64,000 nucleotides of DNA from the NCBI RefSeq assembly GCF_009906855.1, contig NZ_CP047650.1, positions 2,418,001-2,482,000 on the forward strand, read 5' to 3'. Source of the DNA: Xylophilus rhododendri (GTDB lineage Bacteria; Pseudomonadota; Gammaproteobacteria; Burkholderiales; Burkholderiaceae_C). Position 1 is the first letter of the stretch; every line of letters starts with the position of its first letter. This document shows positions 25,797 to 36,446 of the stretch, piece by piece. Both the position numbers and the translations under genes were made by a program. The notes beneath the pieces are model-generated. The model searched no databases. It had not been told where the DNA came from and worked only from the letters and a program-made list of their open reading frames with translations.

Positions 25797-27026
25797 CTAC
25801 TTGTCCTGCGAGATAGGCATGTCGATGCTCCCATCGAGCATCTTCACAGGCCCCGCCGCAGTGGGATTGATGTCGAAGTCGAAGATCTCCGTAGGCAGCC
25901 ACAGCGTCGCACAGGCATTGGGCACATCCACCACCCCACTGATGTGCCCCTGCACCGGCGCAGTCCCCAGGATCGAATAGGCCTGCGCGCCGCTGTAGCC
26001 GAACTTCTTCAGGTACTCGATCGCGTTCAGGCAGGCCTGCCGATAGGCCACGGTCACATCGAGATAGTGCTGCTTGCCAGCCTCATCCACCGAGATCCCC
26101 TCGAAGATCAGATAGTCCTTGTAGTTAGGCACGATGGGACTGGGCTTGAAGATCGGATTCTTGATCCCGTACTTGGCCATGCCACCCTTGATCAGCGACA
26201 CCTTCATGTGCACCCAACCGGCCATCTCGATGGCGCCGCAGAAGGTGATCTCCCCGTCGCCCTGGCTGAAGTGCAGATCGCCCACCGACAGGCCAGCGCC
26301 CTCGACGTACACAGGGAAGTACACCTTGGACCCGCGCGACAAATCCTTGATATCGCAGTTGCCCCCATGCTCACGCGGCGGCACAGTGCGGGCACCCTCG
26401 GCAGCAGCCTTGGCCGCAGCCTCGCCCGTCAGCATGCCCATATGCGCAGTCGGCGCATTGGGCGGATTCGCCAGGCCAGGTACGCGATCCGGATCGGTGG
26501 CAATCAGCTCAGCCTCCCGGGCGTTCCAGGCATCCAGCATCTTCTGATCCGGCAGACACCCGATCAGCCCCGGATGGATCAGCCCCGCGAAGTTCACCCC
26601 GGGGATATGCCGGCTATTGGTGAACATCCCGTGAAAGTCCCAGATCGACTTCTGCGCCAGCGGATAGTGCTCGGTGAGAAACCCCCCGCCGTTCTTCTTC
26701 GAGAAGAAGCCATTGAAACCCCAAAGGCTGTCATCCCGCGCCCCGATGTCGAGCAGATCGACCACCAGCAGGTCGCCAGGCTGCGCCCCCTTCACCCCGA
26801 CGGGGCCAGACAGAAAGTGCACCGTCGAAAGATCCACATCCCGCACGTCATCCGCACTGTCGTCGTTCTTGATCGCACCACCAGTCCAGTCATAAGTCTC
26901 CAGCTTGAACTCATCCCCCGGATTCACCCAGACGGCCATGGGAATATCCGGATGCCACCGGTTGTGCACCTTCTTGTTCTCATAGGGAGACTGCTGGAGA
27001 TCGACTTTGATCAGGGTATCGGCCAC
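25797..27026 (-). CDS. fmdA: Formamidase/acetamidase FmdA
   Basis: A 409-residue enzyme of the acetamidase/formamidase family, hydrolysing formamide to formate and ammonia. Family blocks visible include HNRWHPDIP near the N-terminus, PGDLLVVDLLDIG, the REHGGNCDIKDL metal/substrate region, GDLHFSQGDGEITFCGAIEM and the C-terminal DVPNACATLWLPTEIFDFDI. It uses a GTG start at 27026 preceded by AAAGGAG. It sits 17 bases after the last ABC transporter gene and 2 bases before fmdB. Formate produced here could be oxidised by the formate dehydrogenase encoded at 58.5-63.3 kb. Confidence 0.95.
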   Translation of the reverse strand: MADTLIKVDLQQSPYENKKVHNRWHPDIPMAVWVNPGDEFKLETYDWTGGAIKNDDSADDVRDVDLSTVHFLSGPVGVKGAQPGDLLVVDLLDIGARDDSLWGFNGFFSKKNGGGFLTEHYPLAQKSIWDFHGMFTNSRHIPGVNFAGLIHPGLIGCLPDQKMLDAWNAREAELIATDPDRVPGLANPPNAPTAHMGMLTGEAAAKAAAEGARTVPPREHGGNCDIKDLSRGSKVYFPVYVEGAGLSVGDLHFSQGDGEITFCGAIEMAGWVHMKVSLIKGGMAKYGIKNPIFKPSPIVPNYKDYLIFEGISVDEAGKQHYLDVTVAYRQACLNAIEYLKKFGYSGAQAYSILGTAPVQGHISGVVDVPNACATLWLPTEIFDFDINPTAAGPVKMLDGSIDMPISQDK

Positions 27027-27043: not shown

Positions 27044-27745
27044 TCAGACAGAGAGATAGGACTTGATGCGCTGCTGGTCGGTTTCGGCACGCGAGGTCTC
27101 GTGCACCAGCCGCCCGCCCTCGATCACGAAGAGCCGGTCGGCCACGTCCATGGCGAAGGACAGCACCTGCTCGCTGACCACGATGGTCAGCTTGCGCATG
27201 CGGCGGATCTCGTTGAGCGCCTTGGCGATGTCCTTGATGATCGAAGGCTGGATGCCTTCGGTGGGCTCGTCGAGCAGCAGCACCTTGGGATCGGTCACCA
27301 GCGCGCGGGCGATGGCCAGCTGCTGCTGCTGCCCGCCGGAGAGGTTGCCGCCCTTGCGCCGGCGCATGTCCCACAGCACCGGGAACAGCGCGAAGATCTC
27401 CTCGGGAATCTTCTTGACCTTGGCGTTCTCCAGCCCGGTCTGGATGTTCTCCTCCACCGTCAGCGTGGGGAAGATCATGCGGCCCTGCGGCACATAGGCG
27501 ATGCCCTTGGCGACCCGGCGGAAGCTCTCGTCCTTGCTCACTTCCTGTCCGCCCACGGTGATGCTGCCGCTCTTGCAGGGCAGCACGCCCATCAGGCTCT
27601 TGAACAGCGTGGTCTTGCCCATGCCGTTGCGGCCCATGATGGCCACCGTCTCGTTCTCGCGGCCCTCGAAGGAGATGCCGTGCAGGGCTTCGCTCTGGCC
27701 GTAGGCCACGTGGAGGTCCCTGACCTGGAGGATGTCGGCGCTCAT
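27044..27745 (-). CDS. Amide/urea ABC transporter ATP-binding protein, UrtE-like
   Basis: A 233-residue LivF/UrtE-type ATPase: Walker A GRNGMGKTT (38-46), signature LSGGQQQQLAIARAL, Walker B LLLDEPTEGIQPSII. The EGIQPSI extension after Walker B is typical of UrtE and FmdF proteins. It starts 2 bases after the UrtD-like gene. It would power uptake together with the UrtD-like subunit. The downstream fmdA suggests short amides rather than, or as well as, urea. Confidence 0.92.
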   Translation of the reverse strand: MSADILQVRDLHVAYGQSEALHGISFEGRENETVAIMGRNGMGKTTLFKSLMGVLPCKSGSITVGGQEVSKDESFRRVAKGIAYVPQGRMIFPTLTVEENIQTGLENAKVKKIPEEIFALFPVLWDMRRRKGGNLSGGQQQQLAIARALVTDPKVLLLDEPTEGIQPSIIKDIAKALNEIRRMRKLTIVVSEQVLSFAMDVADRLFVIEGGRLVHETSRAETDQQRIKSYLSV

Positions 27746-27747
27746 GT

Positions 27748-28487
<740 letters not shown>

Positions 28488-28491
<4 letters not shown>

Positions 28492-29675
28492 GGCTGGGTT
28501 CCCTGCAGGTTGGACGGAAGGCTGGCGGGTTCGGGCGCGGGTGCCGGCGGCACGGCATGGGGCGCGGGGGCCTTGGGCGCGGCCTGCCGGAGTGCCGCGC
28601 GGCGGCCGCGCCACCAGGGCTTGACGTGTTCTTCCCAGACGCCGGCCAGGCCCATCGGGAAGGCCATGGTCACGCCGATGAAGAGCGCGGCCATCAGGAA
28701 CAGCCACAGGTCCGGGAAGCTCTCCGAGAAGTAGGTCTTGCCGGCGTTCACCAGCAGCGTGCCGTACACCGCGCCGACCAGGCTCATGCGTCCGCCGACG
28801 GCCGCGTAGATCACCATCTCGATCGAAGGCACGATGCCCACGAAGCTCGGCGACATGAAGCCCACCTGCAGCGTGAACAGCGCGCCGCCGATGCCCGACA
28901 GGGCGGCGGCCAGGCAGAAGGTGAAGACCTTGAAGTTGGACACGTCGTAGCCGGAGAACCGCACCCGGTCCTCCTTGTCGCGCATGGCCAGCAGCAGGGT
29001 GCCGAGCTTGCTGGTCTGGATGAAGCGGCACAGCAGCATGGCGGCCACCAGCAGCGCCACGCAGGCGTAGTAGAGGATGTACTTGGCCGAGTCGGTGCGG
29101 GTGTCCCAGCCCAGCACGGTCTTCAGGTCGGTCATCCCGTTGACGCCGCCGGTATAGCCCTGCTGGCCGATGATGAGCACCGTCACGATCAGCGCCACCG
29201 CCTGCGTGATGATGGCGAAATACACCCCGCCCACCCGCCGCTTGAACATGGCGAAACTCACGATCCAGGCCAGCAGCGTGGGCAGCAGGATCACCGCCGC
29301 CAGCGAGAAGGGCAGGCTCTTGAAGGGCACCCAGAAGGCCGGCAGCGCGGTGATCTGGTTCCAGTCCATGAAGTCCGGAATGCCGGGGGTGGACTGGATC
29401 TTGGTGGTGATCGGGTCCGAGGCTTCGAGCTTCAGGAACATGGCCATGGCATAGCCGCCCAGGCCGAAGAACACACCCTGCCCCAGGCTCAGCACGCCGC
29501 CATAGCCCCAGACCATCACCAGGCCGATGGCCACGAAGGCATAACTCAGGTACTTGCCCACCAGGTTGAGCCGGAAGATGTCCAGCGACAGCGGCAGCAC
29601 CACCGCCAGCAGCACGGTCAGCAGCACCATGCTGGCGAGCTGGTAGCGCACGATCCAGGATTTGATTCGGTTCAT
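28488..29675 (-). CDS. Amide/urea ABC transporter permease, UrtC-like
   Basis: A 395-residue permease of the LivM/UrtC type, with about ten membrane segments starting LASMVLLTVLLAVVLPLSLDI, the family block YAFVAIGLVMVWGYGGVLSLGQGVFFGLGGYAMAMFL (in parts: GLVMVWGYGGVLSLGQG and FFGLGGYAMAMFL) and an EAA-like loop ALSGIGGALF. The C-terminus carries an unusual Pro/Ala-rich tail of about 40 residues after the last membrane segment. It overlaps both neighbours by 4 bases, indicating a single translationally coupled operon. Confidence 0.92.
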
Positions 29676-30586
29676 CGACGCACCTTGCTAGCGAAGAGGC
29701 CTTGCGGGCGGACCATGAGGATCAGCACGATCAGCGACAGCGTGATCACCTTGGCCATGGAGCCGGCCAGGAAGAACTCGGTGATCGACTGCGTCTGCGC
29801 GATGCCGAAGGCCGACACCACCGTGCCCAGCAGGCTGGCCGCGCCGCCGAAGGTGACGACCAGGAAGCTGTCCACGATGTAGAGCGATCCCGACGTCGGC
29901 CCGGTCGAGCCGATGGTGGTGAAGGCGGCGCCCGCGATGCCGGCGATGCCGCAGCCGATGGCGAATGTCAGCCGGTCGGTGCGCTGGGTGTCGATGCCGA
30001 TGGCGTTGGCCATCACCCGGTTGCTCACCGTGGCGCGCACCCGCAGGCCCCAGCGGCTGCGGTGCAGGGCGAACAGCACGCCGCCGGTGACGACCGCGGT
30101 GAGGCCCAGCACGAACATGCCGTTGATCGGGATGTCCAGGCCCTCGGCCGGCGCCCAGGAGCCCAGCAGCCATTCGGGCAGCGTGGGGCTGACCTCCTTG
30201 GGGCCGATGAAGGAGCGGAAGCACTGCTGCAGCGCCAGGCTCACGCCCCAGGTGGCCAGCAGGGTGTCGAGCGGGCGTTTGTAGAGGTGGCGGATCAGGC
30301 CCCATTCCACCAGCCAGCCGCCGATGAAACCGAAGCCGAAGGCGGCCGCGATGGCCACCGGGAAGTAGTAGGGCAGCAGCGCCGGCGCATGGTTGCCGAC
30401 CAGCGTGGAGCCGAGATAGATGGTGTAGGCGCCTATGGTCATGAACTCGCCATGCGCCATGTTGATCACGCCCATCTGGCCGAAGATGATGGCCAGGCCC
30501 AGGCCCATCAGCAGCAGCACCGCGAACAGGCTCAGGCCCGCGAAGCCCTGCATCAGGCCGATGTTCAGCATTTCCGAAAGGCTCAT
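29672..30586 (-). CDS. Amide/urea ABC transporter permease, UrtB-like
   Basis: A 304-residue LivH/UrtB-type permease with about eight membrane segments; LGLAIIFGQMGVINMAHGEFMTIGAY is the family hallmark (given here in parts: AIIFGQMGVINMAHGEF). It lacks the long N-terminal extension seen in some urea-cluster UrtB proteins. The ATG at 30586 follows a GGGGAA; a TTG at 30601 would add five residues. It is 61 bases downstream of the receptor gene and overlaps the UrtC-like gene by 4 bases. Confidence 0.92.
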   Translation of the reverse strand: MSLSEMLNIGLMQGFAGLSLFAVLLLMGLGLAIIFGQMGVINMAHGEFMTIGAYTIYLGSTLVGNHAPALLPYYFPVAIAAAFGFGFIGGWLVEWGLIRHLYKRPLDTLLATWGVSLALQQCFRSFIGPKEVSPTLPEWLLGSWAPAEGLDIPINGMFVLGLTAVVTGGVLFALHRSRWGLRVRATVSNRVMANAIGIDTQRTDRLTFAIGCGIAGIAGAAFTTIGSTGPTSGSLYIVDSFLVVTFGGAASLLGTVVSAFGIAQTQSITEFFLAGSMAKVITLSLIVLILMVRPQGLFASKVRR

Positions 30587-30647: not shown

Positions 30648-31901
30648 TTACTGGTAGCCCTTGGGGAACGGGTCCGGCTTGATCAGGTCGGGCGATTCCG
30701 ATACGACCTTGAAGGTGGCGTCGGCCTGGCCCTGCGCGATGCGCGACTTGCTCCACAGGTGGTGGTTGGCGTCGAGCTTCACATAGCCCTCGGGCGCGGT
30801 CTTCAGTTCGATGCCGGGCGAGGCGGCGACCACCTTGTCCACGTCGAAGCTCTTGGCCTTTTCCACCGCGGCCTTCCACAGCCAGGGGCCGAGGTAGCCC
30901 GCCTGGGTCACGTCGCCGATCACCGAGTTGGGGCCGTACTTGGCCTTGAAGGCTTCGACGAACTTCTTGTTGTTGTCGTTGTCCAGGCTCTGGAAGTACT
31001 TCATGGACGAGTAGAAGCCCTTGAAGTTCTCGCCGCCCACGCCGGTCATCTCGTCCTCGGTGACGGCCAGCGTCACCAGCAGCTGCTTGTCGCCGGTGAT
31101 GCCGGCGGCCTTGAGCGCCTTGTAGAAGGCCACGTTGGAGCCGCCGACCACGGCCACGAACAGGCAGTCGGGCTTCTGCACCTTGATCTTGTTCATCAGG
31201 GAGCCGAAGTTGGTGCTGCCCAGCGGGTAGTACTCCTCGCCGACGACCTTGCCCTTCTGGAAGTTCTCGATGTGCTTGCGGGCGATCTTCATCGAGGTGC
31301 GCGGCCAGATGTAGTCCGAGCCGATGAGGAAGAAGCTCTTGGCGTTCTTCTCCTTCTTGGCCCAGTCCAGGCTGTAGAGGATCTGCTGGGTGGCTTCCTG
31401 GCCGGTGTAGATCACGTTCTTGGACTGCTCCAGGCCTTCGTAGAAGGTGGGGTAGTACAAGAGGCCGTTTTCCTTCTCGAAGACCGGCAGCACCGCCTTG
31501 CGCGAGGCGCTGGTCCAGCAGCCGAAGACGGCGGCGCAGTGGTCGCTGATGAGCAGCTTCTTGGCCTTCTCGGCGAAGGTGGGCCAGTCGGAGGCGCCGT
31601 CTTCCTTGATGACCTTGATCTTGCGGCCGAGCACGCCGCCCATGGCGTTGATCTGGTCGATGGCGAGCTGCTCGGCCTGGATGGAGCCGGTCTCGGAGAT
31701 GGCCATGGTGCCGGTGGCCGAGTGCAGCTGGCCCACGGTGACTTCGGTGTCGGTGACCGCCAGCTTGGTGGTGTTGACCGCCGAGGTGGCCTGGGCGTGC
31801 GAGAAGCTGGGCAGGCCGGCCACGGAGGCGGCGCCCAACGCCTGGAGCAGGCGGCGGCGGCTGGATTCGGGGGCGTCGGAGGCGTCGAAACGGGAAGTCA
31901 T
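30648..31901 (-). CDS. Amide/urea ABC transporter substrate-binding protein, UrtA/FmdD-like
   Basis: A 417-residue type-I periplasmic receptor. The N-terminus has a twin-arginine export signal (SSRRRLLQALGAASVAG, cleavage near SHAQA). The mature protein shows TGTMAISETGS, the CWTSASRKAVLPVFE block and YYPTFYEGLEQS, all typical of UrtA and FmdD receptors. It is the first gene of a minus-strand operon running through the permeases and ATPases to fmdA and fmdB. It diverges from the NCS1-kinase gene over a region with two similar dyads, so the sensor probably controls it. Confidence 0.93.
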   Translation of the reverse strand: MTSRFDASDAPESSRRRLLQALGAASVAGLPSFSHAQATSAVNTTKLAVTDTEVTVGQLHSATGTMAISETGSIQAEQLAIDQINAMGGVLGRKIKVIKEDGASDWPTFAEKAKKLLISDHCAAVFGCWTSASRKAVLPVFEKENGLLYYPTFYEGLEQSKNVIYTGQEATQQILYSLDWAKKEKNAKSFFLIGSDYIWPRTSMKIARKHIENFQKGKVVGEEYYPLGSTNFGSLMNKIKVQKPDCLFVAVVGGSNVAFYKALKAAGITGDKQLLVTLAVTEDEMTGVGGENFKGFYSSMKYFQSLDNDNNKKFVEAFKAKYGPNSVIGDVTQAGYLGPWLWKAAVEKAKSFDVDKVVAASPGIELKTAPEGYVKLDANHHLWSKSRIAQGQADATFKVVSESPDLIKPDPFPKGYQ

Positions 31902-31990: not shown

Positions 31991-32029
31991 TACGTTGTTT
32001 GACGTAGGTGGCGTACGCACGGTTGCGTA
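31991..32029. promoter_or_regulatory. Two tandem TACG-N8-CGTA dyads between divergent operons
   Basis: TACGTTGTTTGACGTA (31991-32006) and TACGCACGGTTGCGTA (32014-32029) are both 16-bp inverted repeats with 5-bp arms around 6 bases, spaced 23 bp centre to centre (about two helical turns). They lie between the receptor gene and the sensor kinase gene. They are good candidates for binding by the LuxR-type response regulator at 35523. Confidence 0.6.
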
Positions 32030-32073: not shown

Positions 32074-35000
32074 ATGGCATCCACCGACCGCGCCAACGCC
32101 CATGCGCCCGCCGCCCGGGGCACGCAGACCATCTTCCGGTTCCGCCGCGACTACAACTCCTGGGTCGCCGACGAGACCATGGAGGACTACGCCCTGCGCT
32201 ACACACCCAAGCGCTTCCGGCGCTGGAGCGAGTTCCGGGTGGCCAACACCGCCTTCGGCTCGCTGTCCTTCCTGGCGCTGGAGGCCATCGGCGGCACCAT
32301 CGCGCTGAACTACGGATTCGCCAACGCGATGTGGGCGATCCTGTGCGTGGGCATCGTGATCTTTTTGACCGGCCTGCCGATCGCCTACTACGCGGCGCGC
32401 TACGGGCTGGACATGGACCTGCTGACCCGCGGCGCCGGCTTCGGCTACCTGGGCTCGACCATCACCTCGCTGATCTACGCGGTGTTCACCTTCATCTTCT
32501 TCGCGCTGGAGGCGGCCATCATGGCGCTGGCCCTGCGCATGGTGGTGGACTGGCCGCTGGTCTGGTGCTATGTGGCCTGCTCGGTGGTGGTGCTGCCGAT
32601 CGCGATACGGGGCATCACCTTCATCTCGCGCATGCAGGCGTGGACGCAGCCGGTGTGGCTGTTCCTGCTGTTCCTGCCCTTCGTGTGGATCTTCCTGAAC
32701 CAGCCGCAGCTCTACCGCGACGTGGCGGGGCTGTCGGGGCTGCGCAGCGGCAGCGCGGGTTTCGACGCGCTCATGTTCGGTGCGGCCACGGCGGTGATCT
32801 TCTCGCTGGTGGTGCAGATCGGCGAGCAGGTGGACTTCCTGCGCTTTTTGCCCGAGCGCACCCGGGACAACCACTGGCGCTGGTGGGCGGCGCTGATCGT
32901 GGCCGGGCCGGGCTGGGTCTTCATGGGCATGCTGAAGATGGCGGCCGGGGCCTTCCTGGCCTTCGCGGCGCTGCAGTTCCAGGTGGATCCGCACCGGGCG
33001 GCCGAGCCCACGCAGATGTTCCTGGCGGGCTTCACCCAGGCGGTGGGCCTGCCGGGGGTGGCGCTGGCGCTGACCGTGGTCTTCGTGCTGGTCTCGCAGG
33101 TGAAGATCAATGTGACCAATGCCTATGCGGGGTCGCTGGCCTGGTCGAACTTCTTCGCGCGCATCACCCGCAGCCATCCGGGGCGGGTGGTGTGGCTGGT
33201 GTTCAACGTGGGCATCGCCACGCTGCTGATGACACTCGATGTGTTCGGCGCGCTGGAGAAGGTGCTGGCCTTCTACAGCAATGTGGCCATCGCCTGGGTG
33301 GGGGCGCTGGTGGCGGACCTCGTCATCAACAAGCCGCTGGGGCTGTCGCCGCCGCATATCGAGTTCCGGCGGGCGCATCTGTACGACTTCAACCCGGTGG
33401 GGCTGGGCGCGATGGTGCTGGCGGCCATCGTGGCCTGCTGCGCCCATGTGGGCTGGCTGGGCGGGACGGCGGCTGCCTTCTCGCCCTTCATCGCACTCGG
33501 CCTGTCGATGGCGCTGGCGCCGCTGCTGGCCTGGGCCACGAAGGGGTGCTACTACCTGGCGCGCGATCCGGCCACCGGATGGCAGCCGGGCGAGCTGGTG
33601 CGCTGCGCCGTCTGCGAGAAGCAGTTCGAATCCGAGGACATGGCGCGCTGCCCGGCCTATGCCGCGGCCATCTGCTCCCTGTGCTGCTCGCTGGAATCGC
33701 GCTGCCACGACCGCTGCAAGACCAACGCCCGCGCCTCCGACCAGATCCGCCTGGCGATGGCCTGGCTGCTGCCCAAGCGCTGGGGGCTGCGGGTGAATTT
33801 CCGGCTGGGGCAGTACCTGGTGATCCTGCTGTCGCTGACGGCGGTGATGGCCTTCCTGGTGGGCGTGGTCTATGTGCAGGAGAGCCTGGAGACCCCCGCC
33901 CAGTTCCTGCGCTGGCCCTTCCTCAAGGTGTTCTCGCTGATGGCGCTGATGGCCGCCGTCTGCGCCTGGTGGGTGGTGCTGTCGAGCGACAGCCGGCGCA
34001 TGGCGCAGGACGAGTCCGAGCGCCAGACCCAGCTGCTGCTGCAGGAGATCGACGCCCACCGCCGCACCGACGCCGCCCTGCAGTCGGCCAAGGACCTGGC
34101 CGAATCGGCCAACCAGGCCAAGACGCGCTACGTGGCCGGCATGACACACGAGCTGCGTTCGCCGCTCAACAGCATCCTGGGTTATTCGCAGATCCTGCTG
34201 AAGAACCCGCAGGTGGACGGCTGGCTGCGCGAGACGCTGGCCACCATGCAGCACAGCGGCCAGCACATGCATGCGCTGATCGACGGCTCGCTGGAACTGG
34301 CGCGCATCGAGGCCGGCCGGCTGCGGCTGGACCCGGTGCCGGTGCCGCTGGCCGAACTGCTGGACAACGTGGAGCGCATGATGCGGCCGCAGGCCGAAGC
34401 CAAGGCCCTGCGCTTCTCGGTGCTGGTGGAAGGGCCGGCGCCGGCCTGGATCAGAGCGGATGCCAAGCGGCTGCGGCAGATCCTGATCAACCTGCTGGCC
34501 AATGCGGTGCGTTTCACCGACCAGGGCGCGGTGACGCTGCGGCTGGACTTCCACCACCATGTGGCGCGCATCGAGGTGATAGACACCGGCATCGGCATCG
34601 CACCGCAAGACCAGGAGCGCATCTTCCTGCCCTTCGAGCGCGGCAGCGCCGGCCGCCGCGCCAGCGAGGCGGGCACCGGCCTCGGCCTGACCATCACCCA
34701 CCTGCTGACCGAGCTGATGGGCGGCCAGCTCACGCTGCAGAGCGAGCCCGGCCAGGGCAGCACCTTCACCGTGCGGCTGTACCTGCCGGGCGTGGCCATC
34801 GACGGGCCGGGGCAGCGCCCGCCTTCGGCCGTGCTGCGGCCGGTGGTGGGCTACCTCGCGCCGCGCCGCACCCTGCTGGTGGTGGACGACCAGCCCCTGC
34901 AGCGCCAGCTGCTGGCCGGCCTGCTGGTGCCGCTGGGCTTCGTGGTGCGCGAGGCGGCCAGCGGCAGCGAATGCCTGGAGATCGTGCGCCACGAGCCGCC

Positions 35001-35526
35001 CGACCTGGTACTGCTCGACATCACCATGGACGACCTCGACGGCTGGCAGACCGCCGCCCGCCTGCGCCAGATCCTGCCGGCCGAACGGCTGCCCATCGTC
35101 TTCGTGTCGGCCAATCTCTTCGATGCGCAGTCGGACCAGCTGGCGCGGCTGCAGTGCCAGGGCTTCGTTGGCAAGCCGGTGATCGAATCGGAACTGCTGT
35201 CGGCGCTGGAGCGGGCACTGGCGCTGGAATGGGTGCGCGAGCCGATGCCGCAGGAACTGGCGCCGCAGCCGCCCGCGCCGTCCGGCGCCCTGCTGTCGGC
35301 CCTGCCCGAGGAGCTGCGCGAGAACCTCGCCCGCCTGGCCCGCCTGGGCCAGGCCGCCGAACTGCGCGAGAGCCTGCGCCAGGCGCAGGCCCGGTGGCCG
35401 CGGCATGCCCAGGCCCTGCGCCTGCTGCAGGACTGCGCCGACCGCTTCGATTTCGAGACCCTGGCCCGGCTGCTGCGCGAGGCCGAAGACACCGACAACG
35501 AGACGGAAACCGAGACCGACCCATGA
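32074..35526 (+). CDS. NCS1-transporter/histidine kinase/receiver fusion (hybrid sensor kinase)
   Basis: A 1150-residue inner-membrane sensor. Residues about 20-500 resemble an NCS1 nucleobase-cation symporter (FRRDYNSWVADETMEDYALRY, then about 12 membrane segments). A cysteine-rich linker follows with C511, C514, C526, C534, C537, C538, C544 and C548. Two membrane segments at about 580-640 lead to a HisKA domain with H692 (MTHELRSPLNS), a HATPase with N-box (LINLLANAVRFT), DTGIGIA and GTGLGLTI, and a C-terminal receiver with phospho-acceptor D982. The design parallels CbrA, which has a sodium/solute symporter domain. The ATG at 32074 is preferred; a GTG at 32008 lies within the upstream dyads. 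The adjacent amide uptake operon suggests it senses an amide- or ureide-like solute. Confidence 0.9.
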   Translation: MASTDRANAHAPAARGTQTIFRFRRDYNSWVADETMEDYALRYTPKRFRRWSEFRVANTAFGSLSFLALEAIGGTIALNYGFANAMWAILCVGIVIFLTGLPIAYYAARYGLDMDLLTRGAGFGYLGSTITSLIYAVFTFIFFALEAAIMALALRMVVDWPLVWCYVACSVVVLPIAIRGITFISRMQAWTQPVWLFLLFLPFVWIFLNQPQLYRDVAGLSGLRSGSAGFDALMFGAATAVIFSLVVQIGEQVDFLRFLPERTRDNHWRWWAALIVAGPGWVFMGMLKMAAGAFLAFAALQFQVDPHRAAEPTQMFLAGFTQAVGLPGVALALTVVFVLVSQVKINVTNAYAGSLAWSNFFARITRSHPGRVVWLVFNVGIATLLMTLDVFGALEKVLAFYSNVAIAWVGALVADLVINKPLGLSPPHIEFRRAHLYDFNPVGLGAMVLAAIVACCAHVGWLGGTAAAFSPFIALGLSMALAPLLAWATKGCYYLARDPATGWQPGELVRCAVCEKQFESEDMARCPAYAAAICSLCCSLESRCHDRCKTNARASDQIRLAMAWLLPKRWGLRVNFRLGQYLVILLSLTAVMAFLVGVVYVQESLETPAQFLRWPFLKVFSLMALMAAVCAWWVVLSSDSRRMAQDESERQTQLLLQEIDAHRRTDAALQSAKDLAESANQAKTRYVAGMTHELRSPLNSILGYSQILLKNPQVDGWLRETLATMQHSGQHMHALIDGSLELARIEAGRLRLDPVPVPLAELLDNVERMMRPQAEAKALRFSVLVEGPAPAWIRADAKRLRQILINLLANAVRFTDQGAVTLRLDFHHHVARIEVIDTGIGIAPQDQERIFLPFERGSAGRRASEAGTGLGLTITHLLTELMGGQLTLQSEPGQGSTFTVRLYLPGVAIDGPGQRPPSAVLRPVVGYLAPRRTLLVVDDQPLQRQLLAGLLVPLGFVVREAASGSECLEIVRHEPPDLVLLDITMDDLDGWQTAARLRQILPAERLPIVFVSANLFDAQSDQLARLQCQGFVGKPVIESELLSALERALALEWVREPMPQELAPQPPAPSGALLSALPEELRENLARLARLGQAAELRESLRQAQARWPRHAQALRLLQDCADRFDFETLARLLREAEDTDNETETETDP

Positions 35527-36446
35527 ACGCGATCGACCAGCCCCATGCAGCGCCCGCCCCCCTGCCCGCCGCCGATGCGCGCCGGGTGATCCTGGTGGTG
35601 GACGACGCCCTGGACACCCTGCGCATGGTGAGCGACGCCCTGGCCGGCGCCGGCTATGCCGTGCTGGTGGCGCGCGATGCCGAGGAGGCCCTGCAGCGTT
35701 TCGAGATCACCGTGCCCGACGGCGTGCTGCTGGATGCGGTGATGCCGGGCATCGACGGCTTCGCCCTGTGCCGCCGGCTCAAGGCCATGCCGGCCTGGTC
35801 GCATGTGCCGGTGCTGTTCATGACCGGGCTGTCGGAGACCGAGCAGATCCTGCAGGGCTTCGCCAGCGGCGGGGTGGACTATGTCGTCAAGCCCCTGCGC
35901 ATACCCGAGGTGCTGGCGCGCCTGGCCACCCATGTGCGCAACGCCCAGGCCGCGCGGCTGGCGCGCGAGGCGGTGGACGTGGCGGGCATGGGCACGGTGG
36001 TGCTGGATGCGCTGGGGCGGGTGGCCTGGCAATCGCCGCAGGCCGCGCGCTGGCTGGACGAGGCTTTCGCCGGCCCGGCGGTCGAAGCGCGGGGCGGCTG
36101 GCTGCAATCGGTGCGGGTGGGCGAGGAGGCTTGCACCGCGCTGGGCGCCGGGCGGCGGCTGGCGGCGCGCCACATGGGCGAGAGCGGTTTCTCCGAGGCC
36201 ATGCTGCTGCTGCGCAGCGAACGCATGGATGCGGTCTCGCCGCCGCGCCAGCCGGACGTGCCGCTGACGCCGCGCGAGACCGAGGTGCTGTCCTGGCTGG
36301 CCAAGGGCAAGACCAATCGCGACATCGCCGACATCCTGGGCATGAGCCCGCGCACGGTGAACAAGCACCTGGAGCACATCTTCGAGAAGCTGGGGGTGGA
36401 GACGCGGTCCGCGGCCACCGCCATGGCTGGGCGATGGCTGGCCTAG
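35523..36446 (+). CDS. Response regulator, LuxR/NarL family
   Basis: A 307-residue two-domain regulator. The receiver (about 21-140) has VVDDALD, phospho-acceptor D71 (LLDAVMPG) and K125 (VVKPL). A linker of about 100 residues precedes a C-terminal LuxR-type HTH (about 240-300: LTPRETEVLSWLAKGKTNRDIADILGMSPRTVNKHLEHIF, in parts LTPRETEVLSWLAKG and MSPRTVNKHLEHIFEKLGV). It overlaps the sensor gene by 4 bases (ATGA), so the pair is co-translated and almost certainly cognate. Its likely targets are the paired dyads at 31991-32029. Confidence 0.93.
   Translation: MNAIDQPHAAPAPLPAADARRVILVVDDALDTLRMVSDALAGAGYAVLVARDAEEALQRFEITVPDGVLLDAVMPGIDGFALCRRLKAMPAWSHVPVLFMTGLSETEQILQGFASGGVDYVVKPLRIPEVLARLATHVRNAQAARLAREAVDVAGMGTVVLDALGRVAWQSPQAARWLDEAFAGPAVEARGGWLQSVRVGEEACTALGAGRRLAARHMGESGFSEAMLLLRSERMDAVSPPRQPDVPLTPRETEVLSWLAKGKTNRDIADILGMSPRTVNKHLEHIFEKLGVETRSAATAMAGRWLA

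Follow-up and report, generated by a model that had tools for sequence, protein, structure and literature searches.

A hybrid histidine kinase with an NCS1-related, transporter-like domain and its probable link to a divergent amide uptake operon in Xylophilus rhododendri

In the present work, we analysed a stretch of 64,000 nucleotides from Xylophilus rhododendri (contig NZ_CP047650.1, positions 2,418,001 to 2,482,000 of the forward strand; hereafter, the window), focusing on a gene at 32074-35526 of its plus strand that encodes a hybrid sensor histidine kinase with a transporter-like N-terminus. The frame is open throughout, and an alternative GTG start at 32008 would yield 1172 instead of 1150 aa. 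The original prediction had described an NCS1-type symporter domain joined, via eight cysteines and two membrane segments, to HisKA, HATPase and receiver domains; Pfam, the sequence itself and a structural model bore out the three kinase modules, the cysteines and both membrane segments. We consider it probable that the gene belongs to an amide-responsive two-component system, composed of an NCS1-derived receptor, a response regulator, operator repeats and an operon for an ATP-binding cassette (ABC) transporter and a formamidase. The kinase gene, its parts and the predicted operators are as follows:

32074..35526, plus strand: hybrid sensor histidine kinase with N-terminal NCS1-type domain, 1150 aa (open reading frame, Pfam, homologues)
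32182..33546, plus strand: NCS1-fold sensor domain, residues about 37-491 (CodB fold match, profile match, model helices)
33604..33717, plus strand: eight-cysteine block C511-C548, predicted to be cytoplasmic (conservation; short strands and a helix in the model)
33799..33993, plus strand: two extra membrane helices, residues 576-604 and from 609 (full-length model)
34117..34317, plus strand: HisKA, residues 682-748 (Pfam, above cut-off)
34459..34785, plus strand: HATPase_c, residues 796-904 (Pfam, above cut-off)
34876..35208, plus strand: receiver domain (Response_reg), residues 935-1045 (Pfam, above cut-off)
35308..35490, plus strand: C-terminal four-helix stretch 3' of the receiver, unnamed by Pfam (full-length model)
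31991..32006, no strand: probable operator 1, inverted repeat TACGTTGTTTGACGTA (repeat conservation)
32014..32029, no strand: possible operator 2, looser copy TACGCACGGTTGCGTA, 23 bp further on (paired-copy spacing)

The protein is a hybrid histidine kinase by its parts, i.e. HisKA with its histidine, HATPase_c and a receiver with its aspartate, and the phospho-acceptor H692 as well as D982 and K1034 of the receiver showed no variation among 42 aligned sequences. In the full-length model (mean predicted local distance difference test score (pLDDT) 82.8, predicted template modelling score (pTM) 0.60), one unbroken helix, 609-709, runs from the membrane into HisKA and includes H692. The Pfam scan gave no match to PAS or STAC in this protein (the presence of a STAC model in the library is unconfirmed), and the SSS transporter domain of CbrA/CrbS-type kinases was not found in it.

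The assignment of the N-terminal domain to NCS1 held, yet not through the Pfam model originally proposed as its check: hmmscan detected no PF02133 domain in the window protein (E up to 1) or in its membrane part (E up to 10). A stand-alone homologue with 49% identity to the window protein (L053) did match PF02133, at 31.8 bits against a cut-off of 23.5. When a family profile that omitted L053, the sole member matching Pfam, was compared with an NCS1 set of 17 PF02133 loci plus Escherichia coli CodB (13 of 30 fetched NCS1 loci were left out, as they had no open reading frame in the expected frame), the two aligned over 365 columns with a probability of 97.6% and an E of 3.3e-12, values that come without an unrelated-profile control. 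hhalign gave no usable match against CodB as a single sequence, but it did against the 18-sequence set. Besides, an AlphaFold2 model (pLDDT 85.6) fitted CodB and Mhp1 better than the other listed folds, the CodB match covering model residues 37..491 with an NCS1/LeuT fold, and we counted about 12 membrane helices on the model by hand. Sequence searches of the PDB gave matches that were insignificant or confined to the cysteine tail. By profile and fold, the sensor domain is thus NCS1-related despite the missing Pfam match.

In CodB, two aromatic residues, Trp108 and Phe204, sandwich the base, while Thr278 and Thr279 form the Na2 sodium site, which is not common to all NCS1 members (available part of PMC9379551). 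Counted by hand along the profile alignment, at 18% identity, the CodB positions correspond to the following residues of the window protein: Gln105 to Thr139, Trp108 to Phe142, Gly112 to Glu146, Phe204 to Leu245, Ala207 to Gln248, Thr278 to Lys344, Thr279 to Ile345 and Asn280 to Asn346. In this register, the base sandwich would be replaced by Phe142 and Leu245, and the Na2 site is not present as such, with Lys344 and Ile345 in place of the two threonines. Neither the Phe204 column (F or Y in 10 of 18 NCS1 rows) nor the Thr278 column (T in 5, G in 6, D in 6, A in 1 and K in none of the 18) is uniform, the latter thus being no strict family mark, and a glutamate occupies the Gly112 column in 4 of the 18 NCS1 sequences already. 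Among our own family, Glu146, Gln248, Lys344 and Asn346 were identical in 110 of 110 aligned sensors and permeases (63 amide-type, 16 urea-type, 11 stand-alone, 5 other fusions and 15 unlabelled) and in all 120 of the more distant permeases listed. In our reading, the pocket would accommodate a small, polar and acyclic molecule, and the lineage is one of carriers that lack the usual sodium site. Amide- and urea-type sensors differed at three positions, all conservative changes at the threshold used, which leaves specificity unexplained.

The amide uptake operon that had been noted beside the kinase gene was found as described, divergent from it, and the start codon of the response regulator gene overlaps the kinase stop codon (ATGA). 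The neighbouring genes are:

35523..36446, plus strand: response regulator with Response_reg and a GerE (LuxR-type) DNA-binding domain, both found by Pfam
30648..31901, minus strand: amide ABC transporter binding protein, Peripla_BP_5 (Pfam)
29672..30583, minus strand: ABC permease 1, BPD_transp_2 (Pfam)
28488..29675, minus strand: ABC permease 2, BPD_transp_2 (Pfam)
27748..28530, minus strand: ABC ATPase 1 (Pfam)
27044..27745, minus strand: ABC ATPase 2 (Pfam)
25797..27026, minus strand: FmdA formamidase/acetamidase (Pfam, PF03069, 613 bits)

This arrangement recurs widely. A protein search with the window kinase gave at least 7999 matches, of which the best 120 were examined, and a survey with L053 as query (E 1e-60 or better) located the domain in 52 of 398 sampled Pseudomonadota genomes, at 58 places, all in open frames of at least 894 aa; in a class sample, it was present in 18 of 369 genomes. 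We fetched 55 of the 58 places anew as an unselected sample; the remainder were the window itself, the paralogue from its own genome and the G107 locus (L052). Thirty-five of these 55 loci carried an amide ABC operon, 16 urt or urease genes and four neither (raw counts, without a random-locus baseline), and the regulator lay directly downstream of the kinase in 53. The original suggestion of amides or ureides as ligands accordingly stood for the amides, whereas urea rather than ureides or allantoin emerged as the second class. Two of the four loci without either context (L215, L234) are cut by contig ends and the other two (L196, L206) have fmdA downstream. As a separate observation, L196 and L206 encode shorter fused versions (frames of 894 and 885 aa); in both, the downstream fmdA has the same orientation, and a LuxR regulator was not found. 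The 80 best-match loci are biased towards the window, and our counts rest mainly on the unselected sample. An amide binding protein lay divergently upstream in 59 of these 80; among the 61 with enough flank, 44 had an amide binding protein (43 of them with FmdA), 11 had urt or urease genes (L065, counted in both groups, had the two contexts together), seven had neither within range (in two of these, L092 and L118, urtA lies just past the search range) and the regulator was found in 59.

Genomic context tracks the sensor tree: on a tree of the 110 rows (L076 was omitted, as its translation ended early), the amide and urea labels need three changes, and one starred clade of 23 rows comprises 14 urea, 9 unlabelled and no amide rows. 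This clade includes the own-genome paralogue (C1:3983999-3987409); at a distance of about 8 kb from the latter there is a urtABCDE-like set, and its UrtA shares 82% identity with a UrtA of the urea clade. The membrane module is also found on other outputs. Including the eight-cysteine block, it heads a PAS-GGDEF-EAL protein (L050:8849-12520), a fusion that may feed amide or urea sensing into cyclic di-GMP (c-di-GMP) signalling, and further fusions are a PAS-PAS-HK-REC protein (L051:10023-13841, from the same genome, G137) and a plain histidine kinase without receiver (L042:10406-13372). Two stand-alone permeases of the family were seen in context, one beside fmdA and divergent from a fused kinase (L037), the other beside urease genes (L053). 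Module swapping and these stand-alone contexts together speak for sensing as the role of the module and for an amide or urea as the family's ligand. An apparent transporter-less kinase (L030/L054) was rejected, as it runs off a contig end.

A conserved repeat ties the system to the operon. The divergent intergenic regions have a common inverted repeat, TACGTCAnnTGACGTA, and TACGTN6ACGTA was present exactly in 42 of 64 such regions and with at most one mismatch in 50, as compared with shuffle means of 0 and 0.12 (50 rounds); eight regions held paired copies, with a spacing of 22-23 bp favoured. Throughout the 55 unselected loci (1.06 Mb), every one of the 23 exact copies, along with 47 of 48 copies of the looser TACGYN6RCGTA, lay no more than 350 bp upstream of the start of a binding protein, fmdA, urtA, porin-like or kinase gene, i.e. 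within windows that make up 3.8% of the bases. Counted by locus, such targets were preceded by an exact copy in 18 and by a looser one in 38 of the 55, and, at places remote from the kinase gene, seven exact copies preceded only fmdA and one only urtA. With a threshold of E 1e-100, the amide binding protein was found in 18 of the 369 class-sample genomes, six of which also had the kinase; the repeat was exact in five of the six kinase-bearing amide operons and had two mismatches in the sixth (L043), whereas the 12 operons from kinase-less genomes held no repeat at up to one mismatch in the 1.3-1.4 kb around the gene start. An operator-like TACGCCACCCGGCGTA also precedes urtA in the X. rhododendri genome (L135:8244), about 100 bp from the projected start. 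Sigma-54 sites gave three matches in the 64 divergent promoter regions.

The cysteine block between sensor and kinase calls for a reading of its own. Its residues (C511, C514, C526, C534, C537, C538, C544 and C548) form the motif CxxC-x11-C-x7-CxxCC-x5-CxxxC, and the conservation on which the original prediction had made its idea depend was confirmed, the exact motif being present in 55 of 55 unselected loci, in 120 of 120 kinase homologues among the matches listed, in 20 of 21 class-survey homologues and in 78 of 80 best-match loci (the eight are complete in L091, where one residue is inserted, and L115 is without the last two). Such exact conservation at this position would suit a redox or metal sensor, e.g. 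an iron-sulfur cluster, that gates the kinase, as had been proposed. However, the same motif occurred in 118 of 120 permease-length proteins among the matches listed; the two exceptions are a protein with a one-residue insertion and P0228, which is annotated as a partial kinase and is cut short. Moreover, in 120 listed of 5111 significant L053 relatives, cysteine was found at C511, C514 and C534 in 120, at C537 in 119, at C526 in 41 and at C538, C544 and C548 in none; 119 of these 120 more distant permeases retained the first set of four cysteines. Because the cysteines are conserved in stand-alone permeases as well, a kinase-specific redox sensor is quite unlikely, and the coupling of redox or metal status to sensing was not upheld; rather, the block is an older permease tail, with one set of four cysteines present earlier in plain permeases and the second set gained before or near the kinase fusion. 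Since C538, C544 and C548 are missing as a group, the block may consist of two separate four-cysteine sites in the manner of cross-brace zinc proteins (RING/HIT type), where the first and third ligand pairs go together, and two structural metal sites fit it better than the redox sensor does; matches to RING fingers were insignificant (E 3.1 and 3.5), the loss pattern being compatible with two four-ligand sites. Known NCS1 carriers have a cytoplasmic N-terminus, which, together with about 12 helices, would place the block in the cytoplasm, and its cysteines are likely reduced and metal-bound.

Other explanations concern the receptor, its ligand and its operator. It is possible, albeit doubtful, that the NCS1 domain is also a working permease, a transceptor in which flux rather than mere binding sets the kinase. 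The four invariant residues common to sensors and permeases, the absence of decay in the domain and the stand-alone paralogue beside fmdA (L037) are in line with this, while the ABC transporter already provides uptake in the window and at 35 of the 55 loci, and the swapping of the module onto c-di-GMP and kinase outputs suits a sensor. We regard it as unlikely that the signal is nitrogen or carbon status, a nucleobase or a hydantoin, and not an amide or urea itself: characterised NCS1 carriers mostly take cyclic ligands (available part of PMC13390362) and source records name some relatives allantoin or cytosine permeases, yet amide or urea genes adjoin 53 of the 55 loci (none were found in two), the base-stacking Phe204 and sodium-site Thr278 of CodB are replaced by Leu245 and Lys344 in the profile alignment, and one NCS1 carrier, MetT, takes the acyclic metformin (PMC13390362, same part). 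It is very unlikely that the inverted repeat belongs to another regulator, such as a nitrogen regulator, instead of the adjoining response regulator, given its distribution between kinase-bearing (5 of 6) and kinase-less (0 of 12) amide operons and its recurrence before fmdA and urtA in kinase-bearing loci. Several points nevertheless weigh against an amide-responsive system as drawn here. The domain has not diverged from stand-alone permeases at the conserved residues and may still transport; amide ABC operons lacked the kinase in 12 of 18 sampled genomes, so that it is not obligatory; the neighbour counts are raw ones; two urea-context rows (L046, L049) fall outside the urea clade; and the full-length model is of a monomer, with a pTM of only 0.60. 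As to the operator, in 17 of the 55 loci none of the listed targets is preceded by TACGYN6RCGTA, and the exact form is confined to 18, the kinase gene of the own-genome paralogue has no TACGYN6RCGTA site upstream, and a single such site in a 64-kb window is not significant (at one mismatch, one turned up in 15 of 100 shuffles), nor is the genome-wide result for TACGTCAATTGACGTA at up to three mismatches, which comprised the window site and one lopsided match against three per strand in a backwards control. Finally, the homology of the domains, the conserved cysteines, the synteny and the repeat, conserved with the kinase and absent from the sampled operons that lack it, are observed, whereas we infer the identity of the ligand, the direction of the response, the binding of the regulator to the repeats and that of metal to the cysteines, as well as a sensing function of the domain, be it instead of transport or in addition to it.

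Within the amide-responsive system that we favour, the NCS1-derived membrane domain would act as receptor for a short amide of the formamide or acetamide class, and its conformational change would pass via the metal-bound cytoplasmic tail, the two added membrane helices and the one continuous helix to the histidine kinase. Phosphate would then reach the LuxR-type regulator encoded by the overlapping gene, which would bind both repeats of the divergent promoter (31991-32006, 32014-32029) and activate the ABC uptake operon with its formamidase, possibly along with its own gene. The paralogue at C1:3983999-3987409 would be the urea-type version.

The analogy to CbrA-like kinases with an SSS-type transporter domain, drawn originally, was supported. 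Like CbrA and CrbS (MxtR), the window protein fuses a transporter-like membrane domain to a histidine kinase, and CrbS, which has an SSS-like domain together with STAC and PAS domains and serves acetate regulation, also has a terminal receiver and a separate regulator, CrbR (available part of PMC5436829). Unlike CrbS as described there, the window kinase has an NCS1-type domain, an eight-cysteine tail, two extra helices and amide or urea genes nearby. The ammonium sensor kinase Ks-Amt5 likewise joins a repurposed uptake carrier to a histidine kinase, although its domain is of Amt type and its ligand ammonium, and the available part of that report mentions no receiver (PMC5764959). By analogy, the NCS1-related module would work like a CrbS- or Ks-Amt5-type transporter-derived sensor. 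It has the fold of CodB and Mhp1, and profile homology to a set including CodB, yet differs from NCS1 carriers in having no Pfam match, a lysine (Lys344) for the Na2 threonine, Leu245 for the aromatic residue of transmembrane helix 6 and the added cysteine tail. On the operon side, the formamide- and urea-induced, ammonia-repressed fmdCABDEF genes of Methylophilus methylotrophus also combine short-chain amide and urea uptake with formamidase, but are described, in the accessible text, with a putative positive regulator only and no sensor kinase (PMC10781810). By description alone, urtABCDE-III of Ectopseudomonas guguanensis G3 is similar in having a LuxR-family two-component regulator, a hybrid kinase (given in a figure legend) and, under the locus tag that comes next, fmdA; neither a transporter domain nor cysteines nor an operator is mentioned in the available part (PMC13296017).

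Among the matches listed from the open-licence PubMed Central literature, we found no description of an NCS1-fused histidine kinase. With about even confidence, we propose that the module represents a widespread receptor class that reads external urea and short amides directly, via a repurposed NCS1-type permease. A buried lysine would have taken the place of the sodium site in this lineage, and a second metal site of four cysteines would have arisen, when it was still a plain permease; later, it would have been wired to kinases and c-di-GMP enzymes, with separate amide and urea receptors and matching operators in one cell. If true, a further transporter family, beside SSS and Amt, would have been turned into sensor kinases, and the amide and urea uptake operons of many bacteria would have their regulator. 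The predicted operator is open to immediate testing, and the occurrence of stand-alone permeases and fused sensors in one family makes the change from carrier to receptor amenable to direct comparison.

Some further observations concern the outskirts of the family and its urea-type loci. Plain permeases from Acinetobacter, Streptomyces and others (P0241-P0360), some of them named allantoin or cytosine permease, keep CxxC...CxxC and Lys344, and their substrate may be urea or an amide. Cyanobacterial members from Pseudanabaena and Phormidium (L108, L126) have shorter frames of 982 and 988 aa, and amide or urea genes were not found beside them by the probes used (L108 being a contig of 7 kb). In several urea-type loci, a gene without Pfam match that looks porin-like by eye (L046:8897-10153) lies between the kinase and urtA, preceded in some of them by an operator-like site and reminiscent of the Methylophilus porin FmdC. 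Besides, a run of open reading frames with an apparent common TFPCA-like motif, likewise seen by eye, separates the own-genome urea-type regulator from urtABCDE (L036:12519-17657) and is perhaps a repeated gene family.

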